Assembly: GCA_017453065.1 (NCBI GenBank)
Contig: JAFTKW010000007.1
Coordinates: 1 to 49,805 of the forward strand
Reading direction: 5' to 3'
Length of the DNA stretch: 49,805 nt
Source of the DNA: Lachnospiraceae bacterium
GTDB lineage: Bacteria; Bacillota; Clostridia; Lachnospirales; Lachnospiraceae
This document shows positions 2,377 to 10,941 of the stretch, one piece after another; within the stretch, counting starts at the first letter, position 1, and every line of letters starts with the position of its first letter. The translations under genes were made by a program, and so were the position numbers. A model generated the notes under the pieces. The model had not been told where the DNA came from, searched no databases, and saw only the letters and a list, made by a program, of their open reading frames with translations.

Positions 2377-3105
2377 TCAAAACAAGCCAATTTCCCAACA
2401 GGAAATCAACCACCTAACAAATCCTAGCAAAACCAAGTGTAATGGATAGAAAATATAATAGAAATATTTGTACTGTTTGCCTTTTTTCCCGTTATAAAAC
2501 CAGACAATAAAAAAAGCCAAAGGTGCGGGTAATTCCCAGTAAAAACTAAGCGCACCACCAAATATCTGAAACACCGGTATTCTACGAAACAAATACAATA
2601 TGCCAATACTCAAAATACCATACATACCATAGTCAAGTTCAAGTAGTCTGGCCACTAACATTCCTGCAAACCAGATAGAAACTATGCTCACTGACTGTAA
2701 GTATAGATTCTGAAATTTCTTTTCTAAAAAATCGGTCCCAATCATCAGCAGGATTCCAAGGGCAAGTTCAAAAAAGATATTCTGCTTACCTGTATAAAAC
2801 AGAGAATTATAAATCGCCCAATCAAAGCAAACTTCCGAAACAAAAGCAAATACAACCAATCTACCTAAGTATTTCCATTTGTTAGAAGTATGCTGATAAC
2901 CTTCCACCAAAAGGAAACAGAATATTGGAAACGACAATCTTCCAACTGTCCTGAAAATCTGATATATTATTTCCCAATCAATATACTCATCTCCCATTCC
3001 TTTTGAATACAAAGACGGAATAAGAACCGCGCCTATGTGGTCAATAAACATTGTTATTAGTGCAAACCATTTAAGAGCACTTCCCGTTAAAAACTTTCTG
3101 TTCAT
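2377..3105 (-). CDS. TraX-family multi-pass membrane protein
   Basis: The 242-residue protein is mostly hydrophobic with about 7-8 predicted membrane segments. It carries the TraX signature near the N-terminus (LKWFALITMFIDHIGAVL) and the later GRLSFPIFCFLLVEGYQHT segment. TraX proteins are named for the F-plasmid pilin acetylase, but chromosomal copies are common in gut Clostridia with no conjugation genes nearby, as here, so the substrate is unknown. The ATG at 3105 follows GATGAGGTTATT. The gene sits between plsX and a repeat element in a normally compact cluster, which suggests it was acquired. Confidence 0.82.
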   Translation of the reverse strand: MNRKFLTGSALKWFALITMFIDHIGAVLIPSLYSKGMGDEYIDWEIIYQIFRTVGRLSFPIFCFLLVEGYQHTSNKWKYLGRLVVFAFVSEVCFDWAIYNSLFYTGKQNIFFELALGILLMIGTDFLEKKFQNLYLQSVSIVSIWFAGMLVARLLELDYGMYGILSIGILYLFRRIPVFQIFGGALSFYWELPAPLAFFIVWFYNGKKGKQYKYFYYIFYPLHLVLLGFVRWLISCWEIGLF

Positions 3106-3215
3106 AATAACCTCATCTACTTTATATCTTCTTCAATTCAAGTCATAATAACTTTTAGATTTAGTCAATCTCTCATTTATTTTATATATAGTAGATTAAC
3201 ATGAAACACATAACA

Positions 3216-3242
3216 GTTCAACAAATTGAGATCTATCGAGTC
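3216..3242 (+). repeat. Left terminal inverted repeat
   Basis: This 27-bp segment starts GTTCAACAAATTGAG and ends TATCGAGTC. It matches the reverse complement of 3709-3735 at 20 of 27 positions without gaps. It lies at the junction between ordinary AT-rich sequence and the GC-rich structured block. Confidence 0.55.
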
Positions 3243-3398
3243 AGGCACAGATGAGCCGAATTGGCTACAGGAGCTTGCTCACATGTAGACATCTTCGTGC
3301 GAAGATGTATGTGGCGAAGTCACGCAGCGAGCGATCAGCATCGCTGGACGCGAGCTGGGCCTGGCTCAGAACCGGAACTAGTGCCCCTTCATCTATCG
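3243..3398. repeat. GC-rich, hairpin-rich half of the element
   Basis: This block is visibly richer in GC than its surroundings. It contains a perfect 9-bp inverted repeat ACATCTTCG-TG-CGAAGATGT, an AGCGAT-CAGC-ATCGCT hairpin, and repeated GAGC/GCTC words that could pair. No convincing coding frame runs through it; a 91-codon minus-strand frame crosses it but shares its C-terminal half with hairpin sequence and has no family resemblance. It looks like structured intergenic repeat DNA or an RNA domain. Confidence 0.5.
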
Positions 3399-3655
3399 TT
3401 TTGGGCATAGGTATGAAATAACATCTCGTCCATGCCCAAAAGTTCGAAATTGAGTCTATGCATTCGCGGTTTCTTGTATTTTTTGGGCATAGAGTAATAA
3501 AACTTTCCTTCAGTGCCCAAATATTTGATATTTTGGGCATACAGATAAATTTTTATTTCTCCTATGCCCAAAAACCCTTTCGGTCTTGACAAAATACTGA
3601 TTTTTCGCTCTCTTTTGGGCATGACATATAAATATTAATCTTCTGATGCCCAATC
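3399..3655. repeat. Array of four TTTTGGGCAT inverted-repeat units
   Basis: Each unit is TTTTGGGCAT, a variable AT-rich spacer of 22-23 nt, then ATGCCCAAAA or a variant. Units are 3399-3441, 3481-3522, 3531-3573 and 3613-3655. Units 1-2 and 3-4 are separated by 39 nt and units 2-3 by 8 nt, so the pair repeats with a 132-bp period. A degenerate half-site (GTGCCCCTTC, 3381-3390) lies 8 nt before unit 1, matching the unit 2-3 spacing. Spacers differ in sequence but show partial self-complementarity, so each unit could form an imperfect hairpin of about 43 nt. Confidence 0.85.
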
Positions 3656-3708
3656 TTCCCTGCAAAATCCAGCACTGCCTTGACAAAGTCAAATTTCACA
3701 ACCTAAAC

Positions 3709-3735
3709 GCCTCGATAAATTCAAATTTGTCAAAC
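3709..3735 (-). repeat. Right terminal inverted repeat
   Basis: Read on the minus strand this begins GTTTGACAAATTTGAA and ends TATCGAGGC, mirroring the left repeat with seven mismatches. A further TTGACAAAGTCAAATTT sequence lies just inside it (3680-3696). Confidence 0.55.
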
Positions 3736-3790
3736 TTTTTCATTCTACATTAAAAAATAGATTCGATATATTATAAGTAATAATAAACAG

Positions 3791-3826
3791 ATAAAAACAA
3801 AAAAGGCTTCCCATCAGGGAAGCCTT
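3791..3826 (-). terminator. Rho-independent terminator after rpmF
   Basis: A perfect 10-bp stem AAGGCTTCCC / GGGAAGCCTT with an ATCA loop (in plus-strand reading) is followed on the minus strand by TTTTTTGTTTTT. It lies 14 bp beyond the rpmF stop and uncouples rpmF transcription from TraX and plsX. Confidence 0.9.
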
Positions 3827-3840
3827 CACTGGCAAATTCA

Positions 3841-4020
3841 TTATTCAGCGCTAATGATTTCTTTCTTGTTGTAAGAACCACAAGCCTTGCATACTCTGTG
3901 AGGCATCATAAGTGCACCACATTTGCTGCATTTTACTAAAGTTGGAGCGCTCATTTTCCAGTTTGCTCTTCTCTTATCTCTTCTACCTTTGGAAGATTTA
4001 TTCTTAGGACAAATAGACAT
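3841..4020 (-). CDS. rpmF: 50S ribosomal protein L32
   Basis: Small zinc-ribbon protein of the large ribosomal subunit. The 59-residue translation begins MSICPKNKSSKGRRDKRRAN, typical of L32, and has a four-cysteine zinc-binding pattern CSKCGALMMPHRVCKACG at about residues 31-48. The ATG at 4020 follows GGAGGTGTAACG. It starts 2 bp after the DUF177 stop, the standard yceD-rpmF arrangement. It is followed directly by a strong terminator. Confidence 0.95.
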   Translation of the reverse strand: MSICPKNKSSKGRRDKRRANWKMSAPTLVKCSKCGALMMPHRVCKACGSYNKKEIISAE

Positions 4021-4022
4021 CG

Positions 4023-4550
4023 TTACACCTCCTTATTCGCGTTAAAGATATCTTGCAATACCGCCATACGCGGGTCAGGGACAAATGTATCACATCCGCA
4101 CTCCCCGTCATTTAGGTCATGTCCGCAGACCATGCAAATTCCTTTGCAATCGCCTTTGCACAGAACCTTTTCCGGCTGGTTCATCAAAATCTCGTTGTAA
4201 ATGAGAACTTCTGTATTCAGGCTATAACCTTCCATGATTCCTGCGTCATCATCTTCAGAAATCTCTGCTCCGTCTTCAAGCACAGGTGATACTTCTCGCT
4301 CGAATGCCAGGCAAACTTCTTGATTGATAGGCTTAAGGCAACGATCACATTGCATATCAAGCACTACCCTAGCGCTTCCACTGACCTTCGCTCTATCACT
4401 ACTGATATGCTCAAAGCGAAAACTAATGGGAGACTTCTCCAAGATAGGATATTCACCGAAGCGACTTGAAAACACTTCCATTTCAATGGAAACGTCCATA
4501 TCTTTTGTCTTACCCTCAGATGAAAAAATGTCGGTTAAATTCACTAACAT
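4023..4550 (-). CDS. DUF177/YceD-family protein
   Basis: The 175-residue acidic protein has the conserved C-terminal features of the DUF177 (YceD) family, which is linked genetically to 23S rRNA accumulation and nearly always lies upstream of rpmF. It has a CDRCLKPI motif (about 93-100) and a Cys-rich stretch CKGDCKGICMVCGHDLNDGEC (about 136-156) that may bind metal, then DPRMAVLQDIF near the end. The ATG at 4550 follows TAGGAGTAAGAT. It is the first gene of the rpmF transcript from the promoter at 4614-4642. Confidence 0.9.
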   Translation of the reverse strand: MLVNLTDIFSSEGKTKDMDVSIEMEVFSSRFGEYPILEKSPISFRFEHISSDRAKVSGSARVVLDMQCDRCLKPINQEVCLAFEREVSPVLEDGAEISEDDDAGIMEGYSLNTEVLIYNEILMNQPEKVLCKGDCKGICMVCGHDLNDGECGCDTFVPDPRMAVLQDIFNANKEV

Positions 4551-8214: not shown

Positions 8215-10941
8215 TTATTTTCTTTTTTTCTTACGAGGTTTGTACATGATAAGCGCTAATGCAACGCATAACATACCCATAATTAAAAACCACTTAGGAT
8301 GAATTCCAAACAAATCTCCTGTATCTGGAGAATCATCCATAATTCCAGTTCCACCCATAGTTCTAAAAATAGCAAATGGTGAAAAATGGCTTACAGTCAG
8401 ATAAAGATTTCCTTCCTGATCTATTGCTAGTGGCACACTTTCCAATTGACCATTTCTATCCAGTGTCACTACTCTTACGGAACCAACACCGTCACTGCAA
8501 GATGAAGCCGGAAGTACTATTGTCATCTTATTGTTTCCAAGTTTAGTAATAGACACTCCAGTCTTCTCTTCAATCAGAGTCATATCTAAATATAACGTAT
8601 CACTTGGCATATCATCCTTATACACGCTGTAAAACGCCTGTTTGATTGACTCCATTCCTTCTACAGAAGGCTTGATATAAAGTTCAAGAGAACTTTCATC
8701 CCCTTCCATCCATGCGGTGACTCTATCCCCTCCAGAAAGTGCCAGCCCTTCATTGACAACCAAAACATCTTTGGATATAGTGTTCTCTTCTGGCTGGTCA
8801 TCAAACACCTTTAACTTGTCTAAGCCAAGGATAGAATAACTCTTTCCATCAATATAGATATATTCTGGGATATACGTCTGTTCCAATTCTTCTTTGGTCA
8901 TATTACAAGACATTACTGTCACTTCAGCTCTGTTTTCAGAACTGATATATGCCACAATTCCTTCAAATCCATGATAATCTGGATCCAAAACAGTCCCTTT
9001 TAAATCCTCCACCTGAATCTGTCTATCTACAATCGCAACCAAAACATCCTCCAGTGCATGTAGACGAGCAGATTCGCTGGAAAGTCTCGTGCTGTTTTCT
9101 TCATACGTCAACAAAGGAAGGGTGTCTTTTGTGTCAAAAACCACCACCTTGGTTGAAACACTCTTGTTGGTAGGTGCAAAATTGATAGCACCTAAGCCAA
9201 TGCTTTTTACGGATTCCCAAATATGAATCGTTCCAACATTGCAACCATCAAATGCTCCATCTTTGATCGTGGTGACATATTGACCACCATTGATACGCTC
9301 TAATCCATAACACCCCTTAAAGGCTCCTTCACCTATTTCTCTAAGGCCCTCTGGAAGTGTAACTTCTACTAGTTCCACTCTATCTTCAAAAACATATGGA
9401 CCAATCTTCTTTACCTGTGCAGGAATCGTTATGCTAGCATCATTACCTCGATATGCAAGCAAGATTCCGTCACCCACTATCAGGAAGTCCTCTGACCCAC
9501 CATCCATGTAATTGTCAAGCCATTTGGTCTTTTCAAATGCATTTGGTGCAATAGATGTTACCGTATTTGGAATCTCTACATAACGCAAATCATCACAGTG
9601 ATAAAAAGCTCCATATCCAATAGATGTCACACCTTCTGGAATTACGATTCGAGAAAGATTGCTACGTGCAAAGGCAAACTCACCAATATCCGTAATCGAA
9701 TCTGGGATTTGGAAATCCTGCATAGCCATGCTCTGGTAATAAGCTTTGTCTGCAAGTAAGGTTTCGTTTACAATTGTAAACTTTGGAATATCAATAGATT
9801 TTTCATCAGATGGTATCAGTTCTTCAGGTGCCTGTGTGCCATCTTCTAAATCTGCGGTATCCTCGCTCTCGTTTTTGTCCTGTCCAAACACTGGAGCAGC
9901 ATTGTCAATGAACACAAAGGCTTGATTGCCAACAATAACACTTTGTCCTAGCACATCCTGATTAAAACCTGCGCCATTTCCTGTGTTTTCGCTATCATTA
10001 TTGTCATCAGAATCATCCTCATAATCTTGATTTCCAGTGTCTTCATATTCATTCTGCTGAGAATGAGTCTTTAACCACTTTTGGTAATAGGTATAAGCCG
10101 CTGTACCAATATCTGCTGCAATTTCAAGTTTTGGGCACCCGTCAAACGCTGTTTCATGAATCTGTGCCACGGAAGGCGGAATCGCAACTACTTCTAGATT
10201 GATGCAGTCTGAAAAAGCTTCCAACTCAATAGTATAAACAGAATATGGTATAGAAACACCCTGCAAGGATTTACAATTGCTAAAAGCATAAGCTGGAATC
10301 ACTTCTATGGTATTACTAATAGACAAATTCTTAATAGAATTACAACCCCAGAAAGCATAAGGTGCAATCTCTTTCACCGTAGAAGGCATAGAATAAGTCT
10401 CTTTTTCTCTCACCGGTGCCACAGTATAAAGAACGGACTTATCTTTACTATAAAGGCAACCATCCTCTACTGTAAAATATGGGTTTTCTTTGTCTACTGT
10501 AATCGTTTTTAAGCTTTCACAACCAGCAAATGCACCCATACCGATGTAGCGGAGACTCTTTCCTATATGAATACTCTCTAATTTGGTACAGTTTGCAAAA
10601 GTTCCATTTCCAATTTCCACCACGGAATCTGGAATGATAAATTCTTTCAACTCTTTACATCCAGCAAAAGCTTGGAAGGCAAACTCCTCTACTTCACCCT
10701 TAAAAGAAATCTTCTTTAGAGTAGTGCAGTCCACGAATGCCTCCTCACCAATGCGGTTGACAGTAGCAGGAATAGACACGGCTGACGCCGTGCCTAAATA
10801 TCTGACAAGAGTACCATTATTTAATTGAAAATCTGAAGCTACTGAAGTATCAGCTGCCACATCAGTTGTAGGTATCTGCGTCAAAAACAATGCTAGTATA
10901 ATGAGCAGAGCTCCTACGGATCTTCGAATGGTTTTCTTCAT
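8215..10941 (-). CDS. BspA-like LRR surface protein with SPDTG sorting signal
   Basis: The 908-residue product has a signal peptide (MKKTIRRSVGALLIILALFL, ending near VAADT). It has two blocks of LRR_5/BspA-type repeats (about 50-275 and 385-590; units like IGEEAFVDCTTLKKI), separated by an acidic Asn/Asp-rich linker. A C-terminal domain precedes a cell-wall sorting signal: SPDTGD, the hydrophobic stretch HPKWFLIMGMLCVALALIMY, and the basic tail KPRKKKRK. It lies 39 bp downstream of the larger LRR gene, in one operon with a class B sortase whose substrate it probably is. BspA-like LRRs often mediate adhesion; the binding partner is unknown. The ATG at 10941 follows AGGAAGATAAG. Confidence 0.9.
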   Translation of the reverse strand: MKKTIRRSVGALLIILALFLTQIPTTDVAADTSVASDFQLNNGTLVRYLGTASAVSIPATVNRIGEEAFVDCTTLKKISFKGEVEEFAFQAFAGCKELKEFIIPDSVVEIGNGTFANCTKLESIHIGKSLRYIGMGAFAGCESLKTITVDKENPYFTVEDGCLYSKDKSVLYTVAPVREKETYSMPSTVKEIAPYAFWGCNSIKNLSISNTIEVIPAYAFSNCKSLQGVSIPYSVYTIELEAFSDCINLEVVAIPPSVAQIHETAFDGCPKLEIAADIGTAAYTYYQKWLKTHSQQNEYEDTGNQDYEDDSDDNNDSENTGNGAGFNQDVLGQSVIVGNQAFVFIDNAAPVFGQDKNESEDTADLEDGTQAPEELIPSDEKSIDIPKFTIVNETLLADKAYYQSMAMQDFQIPDSITDIGEFAFARSNLSRIVIPEGVTSIGYGAFYHCDDLRYVEIPNTVTSIAPNAFEKTKWLDNYMDGGSEDFLIVGDGILLAYRGNDASITIPAQVKKIGPYVFEDRVELVEVTLPEGLREIGEGAFKGCYGLERINGGQYVTTIKDGAFDGCNVGTIHIWESVKSIGLGAINFAPTNKSVSTKVVVFDTKDTLPLLTYEENSTRLSSESARLHALEDVLVAIVDRQIQVEDLKGTVLDPDYHGFEGIVAYISSENRAEVTVMSCNMTKEELEQTYIPEYIYIDGKSYSILGLDKLKVFDDQPEENTISKDVLVVNEGLALSGGDRVTAWMEGDESSLELYIKPSVEGMESIKQAFYSVYKDDMPSDTLYLDMTLIEEKTGVSITKLGNNKMTIVLPASSCSDGVGSVRVVTLDRNGQLESVPLAIDQEGNLYLTVSHFSPFAIFRTMGGTGIMDDSPDTGDLFGIHPKWFLIMGMLCVALALIMYKPRKKKRK

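Follow-up and report, generated by a model that had tools for sequence, protein, structure and literature searches.

MITEs, such as the Correia, ERIC, and BOX elements, are short, noncoding, dispersed, and modular sequences with inverted-repeat ends, and in the type III toxin-antitoxin system ToxIN, a repeat array lies beside a nuclease gene. REPtrons, as two reports describe them, consist of palindromes dispersed as inverted pairs, some of which have a cognate TnpA-REP (RAYT) gene beside them, and their repeats and enzymes have co-evolved (PMC8266576, PMC3116915). Here, an array of palindromic units from a Lachnospiraceae bacterium is compared with these systems. With a probability of roughly 0.6, it is a gene-less dispersed copy of an inverted-half-site repeat that is read by a cognate PD-(D/E)XK nuclease-like protein. 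No description of such a system was found in the open-licence PubMed Central literature.

The window, which is the whole stretch of 49,805 nucleotides that was analyzed, contains at 3399-3655 four inverted units of the form TTTTGGGCAT-N22/23-ATGCCCAAAA, with eight half-sites. As an earlier note had claimed, the units start at 3399, 3481, 3531, and 3613, with spacings of 82, 50, and 82, and the spacer lengths are nearly fixed, the inner spacers being 23, 22, 23, and 23 nt long and the gaps between units 39, 8, and 39 nt. The layout is F-23-R-39-F-22-R-8-F-23-R-39-F-23-R, and the alternating 82/50 spacing results from its dyad symmetry about the 8-nt junction at 3523-3530. The features of the array are as follows.

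3379 to 3398, no strand: conserved leader ahead of the array in own-genome copies, holding a rejected half-site
3399 to 3655, no strand: dyad-symmetric array of eight alternating half-sites (four inverted units)
3399 to 3408, plus strand: half-site F1, TTTTGGGCAT, exact
3432 to 3441, minus strand: half-site R1, ATGCCCAAAA, exact
3481 to 3490, plus strand: half-site F2, exact
3513 to 3522, minus strand: half-site R2, GTGCCCAAAT, two mismatches
3523 to 3530, no strand: 8-nt dyad center between units 2 and 3
3531 to 3540, plus strand: half-site F3, exact
3564 to 3573, minus strand: half-site R3, exact
3613 to 3622, plus strand: half-site F4, exact
3646 to 3655, minus strand: half-site R4, ATGCCCAATC, two mismatches

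The arrangement given in the earlier note thus stood, while its exact arms, its extra half-site, and the uniqueness of its spacers needed correction. Both arms are exact in units 1 and 3, but the right arms of units 2 and 4 carry two mismatches each. The degenerate half-site proposed at 3381-3390 is not a half-site but part of the conserved leader, and at this place the other six own-genome copies read TAGTCCCCCTTC, TAGTACCCCTTC, TAGCCCCTTC, or TAGCGCCCCTTC. The spacers are unique inside the window array but not across the own-genome copies, in which each position keeps its own conserved spacer. A CRISPR array, which the note had already dismissed, requires direct repeats, constant orientation, and unrelated spacers, and it is rejected here since the half-sites alternate in orientation and the spacers are conserved between copies.

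An array detector, which required at least three units built on a single inverted word and a constant inner gap, found the window array as the sole array in the 49.8-kb window, and 100 Markov shuffles of the window gave one three-unit array and no four-unit array; a 6-mer detector was dropped as too noisy. The half-site alone is ordinary, with 68 occurrences of TTTTGGGCAT at up to two mismatches in the window versus 74 expected, and it is the arrangement, not the half-site, that makes the array special. The longest ORF overlapping it has 91 aa and no Pfam match. Since the ORFs overlapping 22 arrays (those of the window and other genomes) reach at most 181 aa and the four that were tested had no Pfam match, the arrays were judged to be intergenic. 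The statement that no gene explains the array accordingly holds in the window, where overlapping ORFs are short, but not for the repeat family, for which a nuclease gene family offers an explanation.

The window genome comprises 2.73 Mb in 45 contigs and is 84.7% complete. The motif search proposed along with the first observation recovered the array at other loci of this genome and its half-site, similarly arranged, in three other Lachnospiraceae. Besides the window array, six own-genome copies, some of them shortened, lie on contigs C16, C10 (two), C12 (two), and C6, and the window locus is represented a second time, redundantly, by contig C26 (1768/1769 bases). Two of these copies are without the 132 bp between R1 and R3, and one is without the 82 bp between F3 and F4; to judge from the sequences, the missing stretches are losses between identical half-sites. 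At an orthologous locus of the sister species G061 and G098, six versus four upstream units are present, and arrays thus change by whole units. As DNA, the window array was not found among 60 relatives.

The window array is embedded in a larger composite, which has inverted ends and contains GC-rich modules; its parts are listed below.

3212 to 3240, plus strand: composite left end, terminal-inverted-repeat-like, 76% complementary to 3711-3739
3241 to 3375, no strand: GC-rich modules common to other copies and family-B elements
3711 to 3739, minus strand: composite right end, inverted to the left end

The traX-rpmF gap measures 735 bp in the window genome versus 69 bp in the congener G447, which appears to be without the insertion, the comparison being one of a shorter gap and not of a base-exact empty site. 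The dispersed copies and this shorter gap favor the earlier suggestion of a small mobile element, but no target-site duplication was detected in 13 elements (one cut at its right end) at lengths of 2 to 11 (P = 0.44). Alternatively, an ordinary transposase that acts on the composite ends could move the arrays as MITE-like elements, with the nuclease as a passenger or mere binder. The multiple dispersed, noncoding copies with inverted ends do agree with MITEs, and the GC-rich modules of the composite are partly common to family-B elements. However, this explanation is distinctly improbable, because target duplication is missing, because the arrays of RGIG4653 and Roseburia have no composite ends and, by eye, their flanks diverge at the outer half-sites, because, with transposases not annotated individually, the nuclease is the only widely recurring gene family near arrays, and because word and protein are correlated. 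An internal array of six to eight half-sites and the association with a nuclease family also set the present elements apart from MITEs.

A second array family is present in four places of the window genome (L036, which is G000:C10:1800-4300, L046, L033, and L101), with eight half-sites of TGCGCACCAAAT, symmetric gaps of about 14-26-13-56-13-27-13 that show small differences, and mostly similar outer modules. At the four own-genome nuclease loci, no TGCGCACCAAAT half-sites in array were found. The composite GC-rich modules recur in several congeners (L081-L109; also G465, G468, G472, and G490), and the pattern of the window array was not found where searched in the congeners sharing them. In the congener G002 (L081, L090), inverted words TCAGCGCAT and GGGATAC were seen by eye beside the shared outer modules, without confirmation by the detectors.

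An exact-unit scan of a collection of 84,980 species returned 27 stretches. The half-site TTGGGCAT occurs in multiple copies with similar architecture in Lachnospiraceae RGIG4653, Roseburia RGIG8723, and Enterocloster hominis BX10, and one unit is present in [Eubacterium] cellulosolvens. Gap patterns are nearly constant per genome, being 23-29-23-10-23-29-23 in RGIG4653 and 21-40-21-11-21-40-21 in Roseburia RGIG8723, and Enterocloster hominis BX10 has a three-unit form. By eye, the elements lie in either direction on contigs, whose own direction is arbitrary, and the flanks diverge at the outer half-sites. Twenty of the 27 stretches lie outside Lachnospiraceae, and the three inspected (L059, L065, and L074) are single units that are probably due to chance. 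Six stretches (L058, L059, L060, L068, L069, and L079) belong to Rhodobacteraceae or near relatives, with one unit each, possibly reflecting chance or another use of the word. A shorter half-site pattern, searched in 391 other genomes of the order, matched once in each of 3, fewer than the 7 with a control match, which indicates that the window word is rare and patchy.

Among the ORFs flanking the arrays of RGIG4653, Roseburia RGIG8723, and Enterocloster hominis BX10, a protein family of about 260 aa recurs, and in RGIG4653, arrays lie on both sides of its gene. Three family members matched nothing in NCBIfam and no Pfam model above the cut-off; PADLOC PDC-S68 models match the C-terminal half of three of the proteins with E values of 2e-29 to 4e-31. 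RSKSE, YE, PDF, and EHxG are invariant in 17 aligned proteins, and we take these motifs to be the PD-(D/E)XK pattern E...D...E-x-K/H. An AlphaFold2 model (pLDDT 90, pTM 0.57) predicts an N-terminal helix, three-strand sheet, and long helix, followed by a C-terminal alpha/beta domain, whose Foldseek matches (DrdV, MunI, R2, Card1, FAN1, BamHI, and Hjc) appear to be largely restriction-enzyme-like folds, all of them weak (E > 0.1). Neither sequence nor fold comparison found a PDB relative at an E value of ≤0.001, and the assignment as a nuclease therefore depends on the motifs, the PADLOC models, and the weak Foldseek matches. The protein is probably a DNA-cutting enzyme. The fold of the N-terminal domain likewise had no PDB match at an E value of ≤0.001. 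The family occurs in 38 of 196 sampled genomes of the order (30 loci examined, one per genome), often in several copies and with at least 13 in the top genome, all copy counts of this survey being lower bounds. Four nuclease genes were found in the window genome.

Viral or plasmid cargo was considered and rejected: the array pattern is absent from viral contigs, the nuclease search of viruses returned one viral locus and three short phage records, and no place covering 80% of the nuclease was found on plasmids. In nine plasmids (H4-H12), the nuclease domain matches parts of proteins, most of which are annotated as AAA ATPase or helicase.

The link between arrays and nuclease genes was quantified by a protein-only search, in which 27 of 51 nuclease loci had an array no more than about 1.5 kb away, with 30 arrays in the 173.7 kb covered. 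Eight arrays were found in 358 kb of control DNA from the same genomes (18 control stretches), and the difference between 27/51 loci and 8/105 equal-length control segments is significant (Fisher P = 8e-10); no array was found in 400 kb of four congeners or in three shuffles of every nuclease locus. Dropped before this count were L192-L194 (array-found), L207, L213, and L216 (fragments), L220 (viral), and L221 (a duplicate of L203). L204 and L247 have internal stops, and the arrays of L229 and L237, in which few arms are exact, may be spurious. The 24 loci without a detected array, some of which have short flanks, include L203 and L209 of the window genome, and no nuclease gene lies beside the window array itself. 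Of the 28 arrays in 20 neighborhoods, 19 of which come from loci with known arrays, 24 are found at most about 500 bp from a nuclease gene and 4 are more distant. The words of the nuclease-linked arrays are diverse and include GGGGCTT (13 times), AAGCTAC (7 times), ATGTTGC (8 times), and CGTCCGT (16 times). The eight control arrays, which have no nuclease homologue in their stretches (e.g., L257:11559-11905), are candidate lone dispersed arrays; CACTATC, seven times at a step of 52, is one example. The word TGCATG occurs in G043 both in a nuclease array and in a second array at a distance of 245 kb, and none of the six nuclease matches listed adjoins the latter.

The nuclease might instead be a defense or restriction-like protein, with the adjacent array acting as an operator, sink, or self-protection and the dispersed arrays being decoys or relics of lost genes. 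Many arrays indeed lie just upstream of the nuclease gene, candidate defense proteins (PADLOC PDC-S68) share the nuclease domain as their C-terminal domain, and matches extend to the plasmid proteins annotated as AAA ATPase or helicase. The homology with PDC-S68 is confined to this domain, however; the profiles of about 1,200 positions match only near their C-terminal end, and the present proteins of about 260 aa have another N terminus. Arrays also lie downstream or on both sides of the gene, and TGGGCAT arrays outnumber nuclease genes in four genomes, with 7 versus 4 in the window genome, 6 versus 3 in RGIG4653, 4 versus 2 in Roseburia, and 6 versus 1 (plus two fragments) in Enterocloster. 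Moreover, in 20 neighborhoods of 7 to 16 kb, 19 of which were picked from loci already known to have arrays, only one ORF group besides the nuclease recurs in at least three (4/20), and no other accessory gene does. A defense role is thus considered unlikely.

Similarity between words tracks identity between proteins. The Mantel correlation is 0.41 over 27 loci, with the three array-found seeds excluded (P = 0.0002, the minimum from 5,000 permutations), and in 276 pairs, with short proteins excluded, the partial correlation is 0.23 (P = 0.0015) for the N-terminal part versus 0.12 (P = 0.04) for the C-terminal part. Counter-examples, in which related proteins have unlike words, are L205/L215, L199/L212, and L226/L227. 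That related proteins tend to have related words suggests that the protein recognizes the repeats, and it may help to spread them. In the window genome, the nuclease C12:187920 scores best against TGGGCAT-linked proteins. Its own array contains GTGCCCAAAG four times, two letters from ATGCCCAAAA, but only its right half-sites resemble those of the window, the left ones reading TTGGGTC. This nuclease is, on sequence grounds, the likely cognate of the window array.

In the reading preferred here, that of a repeat read by its cognate nuclease-like protein, the N-terminal helix/three-strand-sheet/helix part would be the putative word reader and the C-terminal domain would be nuclease-like. Monomers or dimers may bind inverted half-sites about three helical turns apart, and the repeated units would align on one face of the helix. 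Whole units could then be duplicated or lost through cleavage or recombination at an array, and arrays would be copied to new places, either together with the gene or without it.

Start-to-start steps of like half-sites fall at 41-44, 51-55, 61-64, 73-76, 83-85, 92-94, 101-105, and 115-116, and steps of 70, 108, 111, and 133 are off this helical series. With one step per array (n = 25; the smallest step, leaving out L217, L231, and the second arrays of L222 and L228), R is 0.80 at 10.4 to 10.5 bp (P = 1e-7), and for 46 distinct steps, R is 0.60 at 10.5 bp (P = 5e-8). These P values are optimistic because arrays may share ancestry; common descent alone, however, does not account for steps differing by single helical turns. 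By arithmetic, a period of 10.2 suits the window array's own steps of 82 and 50 better than one of 10.5.

Compensated changes are rare in the arms. The covariation check over 69 units of the window's family counted 86 one-sided breaks, 11 G-U pairs, 3 compensated changes, and 4 double nonpairing changes. In the nuclease-linked arrays and two control arrays, 46 one-sided broken pairs, 12 G-U pairs, 15 one-sided pair-creating changes, 1 compensated change, and 2 double nonpairing changes were counted, with 4.9 double changes expected if changes were independent. The phasing at about 10.4 bp and the missing arm covariation indicate that the arrays probably act as double-stranded DNA rather than RNA. 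Of the possibilities raised in the earlier note, a multisite protein-binding array is therefore favored by the helical phasing, the uncompensated arm changes, and the word-protein correlation, the binding itself being putative.

Imperfect RNA hairpins, another of those possibilities, fared less well. The arrays could act as RNA, either as hairpin transcripts or as a type III toxin-antitoxin system in which the repeats neutralize a nuclease toxin, and the predicted folding is strong on both strands (z = -5.1 and -4.7), as it would be for any palindrome. As in ToxIN, a repeat array adjoins a nuclease gene. The present arrays differ, however, in their position, which may be to either side of the gene or far away, in being helically phased, and in the lack of RNA covariation between their arms, and an Rfam scan of 3000-4100 gave only matches below the gathering score. 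An RNA function is accordingly very improbable.

Comparison with REPtrons reveals both shared and divergent traits. In the array family, too, copies are dispersed between genes, and an enzyme gene lies in the immediate proximity of some of them, although the enzyme is a different one. It is PD-(D/E)XK-like, whereas that of REPtrons is HuH/Y1; the arrays look like phased double-stranded sites, whereas REPs are folded single-strand hairpins; the arrays have no general GTAG tag; and there are several nuclease genes per genome. PF01797 had no match in the window genome (G000, 84.7% complete) or RGIG4653 (G426). It matched 2, 7, and 1 times in the remaining three array genomes, and of the contigs with matches, only C6 of G429 also has an array, about 160 kb away. 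GTAG is at the palindrome foot in none of the four window units, and in the tested orientation, it occurs in at least half of the units of 2 of 30 nuclease-linked arrays (L198 and L212); the words of L218 and L225 carry CTAC/GTAG in the opposite direction. Because of the different enzyme and the missing GTAG, the array family is not filed as a REPtron. Ordinary REP/BIME repeats, which are suggested by the short intergenic palindromes of alternating orientation, are scarcely credible given the lack of a Y1 transposase in the window genome and RGIG4653, the rarity of GTAG, and the fixed dyad architecture of six or eight half-sites.

The arrays may represent a new class of repeat elements, a tentative proposal to which we give somewhat less than even odds, in which nucleases multiply phased arrays of their own sites and scatter them between genes in a manner similar to that of TnpA-REP, although on double-stranded DNA and by a different chemistry. 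Each stand-alone nuclease would recognize its own word through a fast-changing N-terminal domain. If true, this would assign a function to a protein family found in 38 of the 196 genomes sampled from the order, account for a class of palindrome arrays, and add a second, unrelated enzymatic route to REP-like repeats, and the many natural protein-word pairs would make the N-terminal DNA-recognition code directly testable.

Elsewhere in the window, an ORF of 908 aa on the minus strand (8215-10941) has repeated leucine-rich motifs, presumably BspA-like, and a C-terminal hydrophobic stretch.
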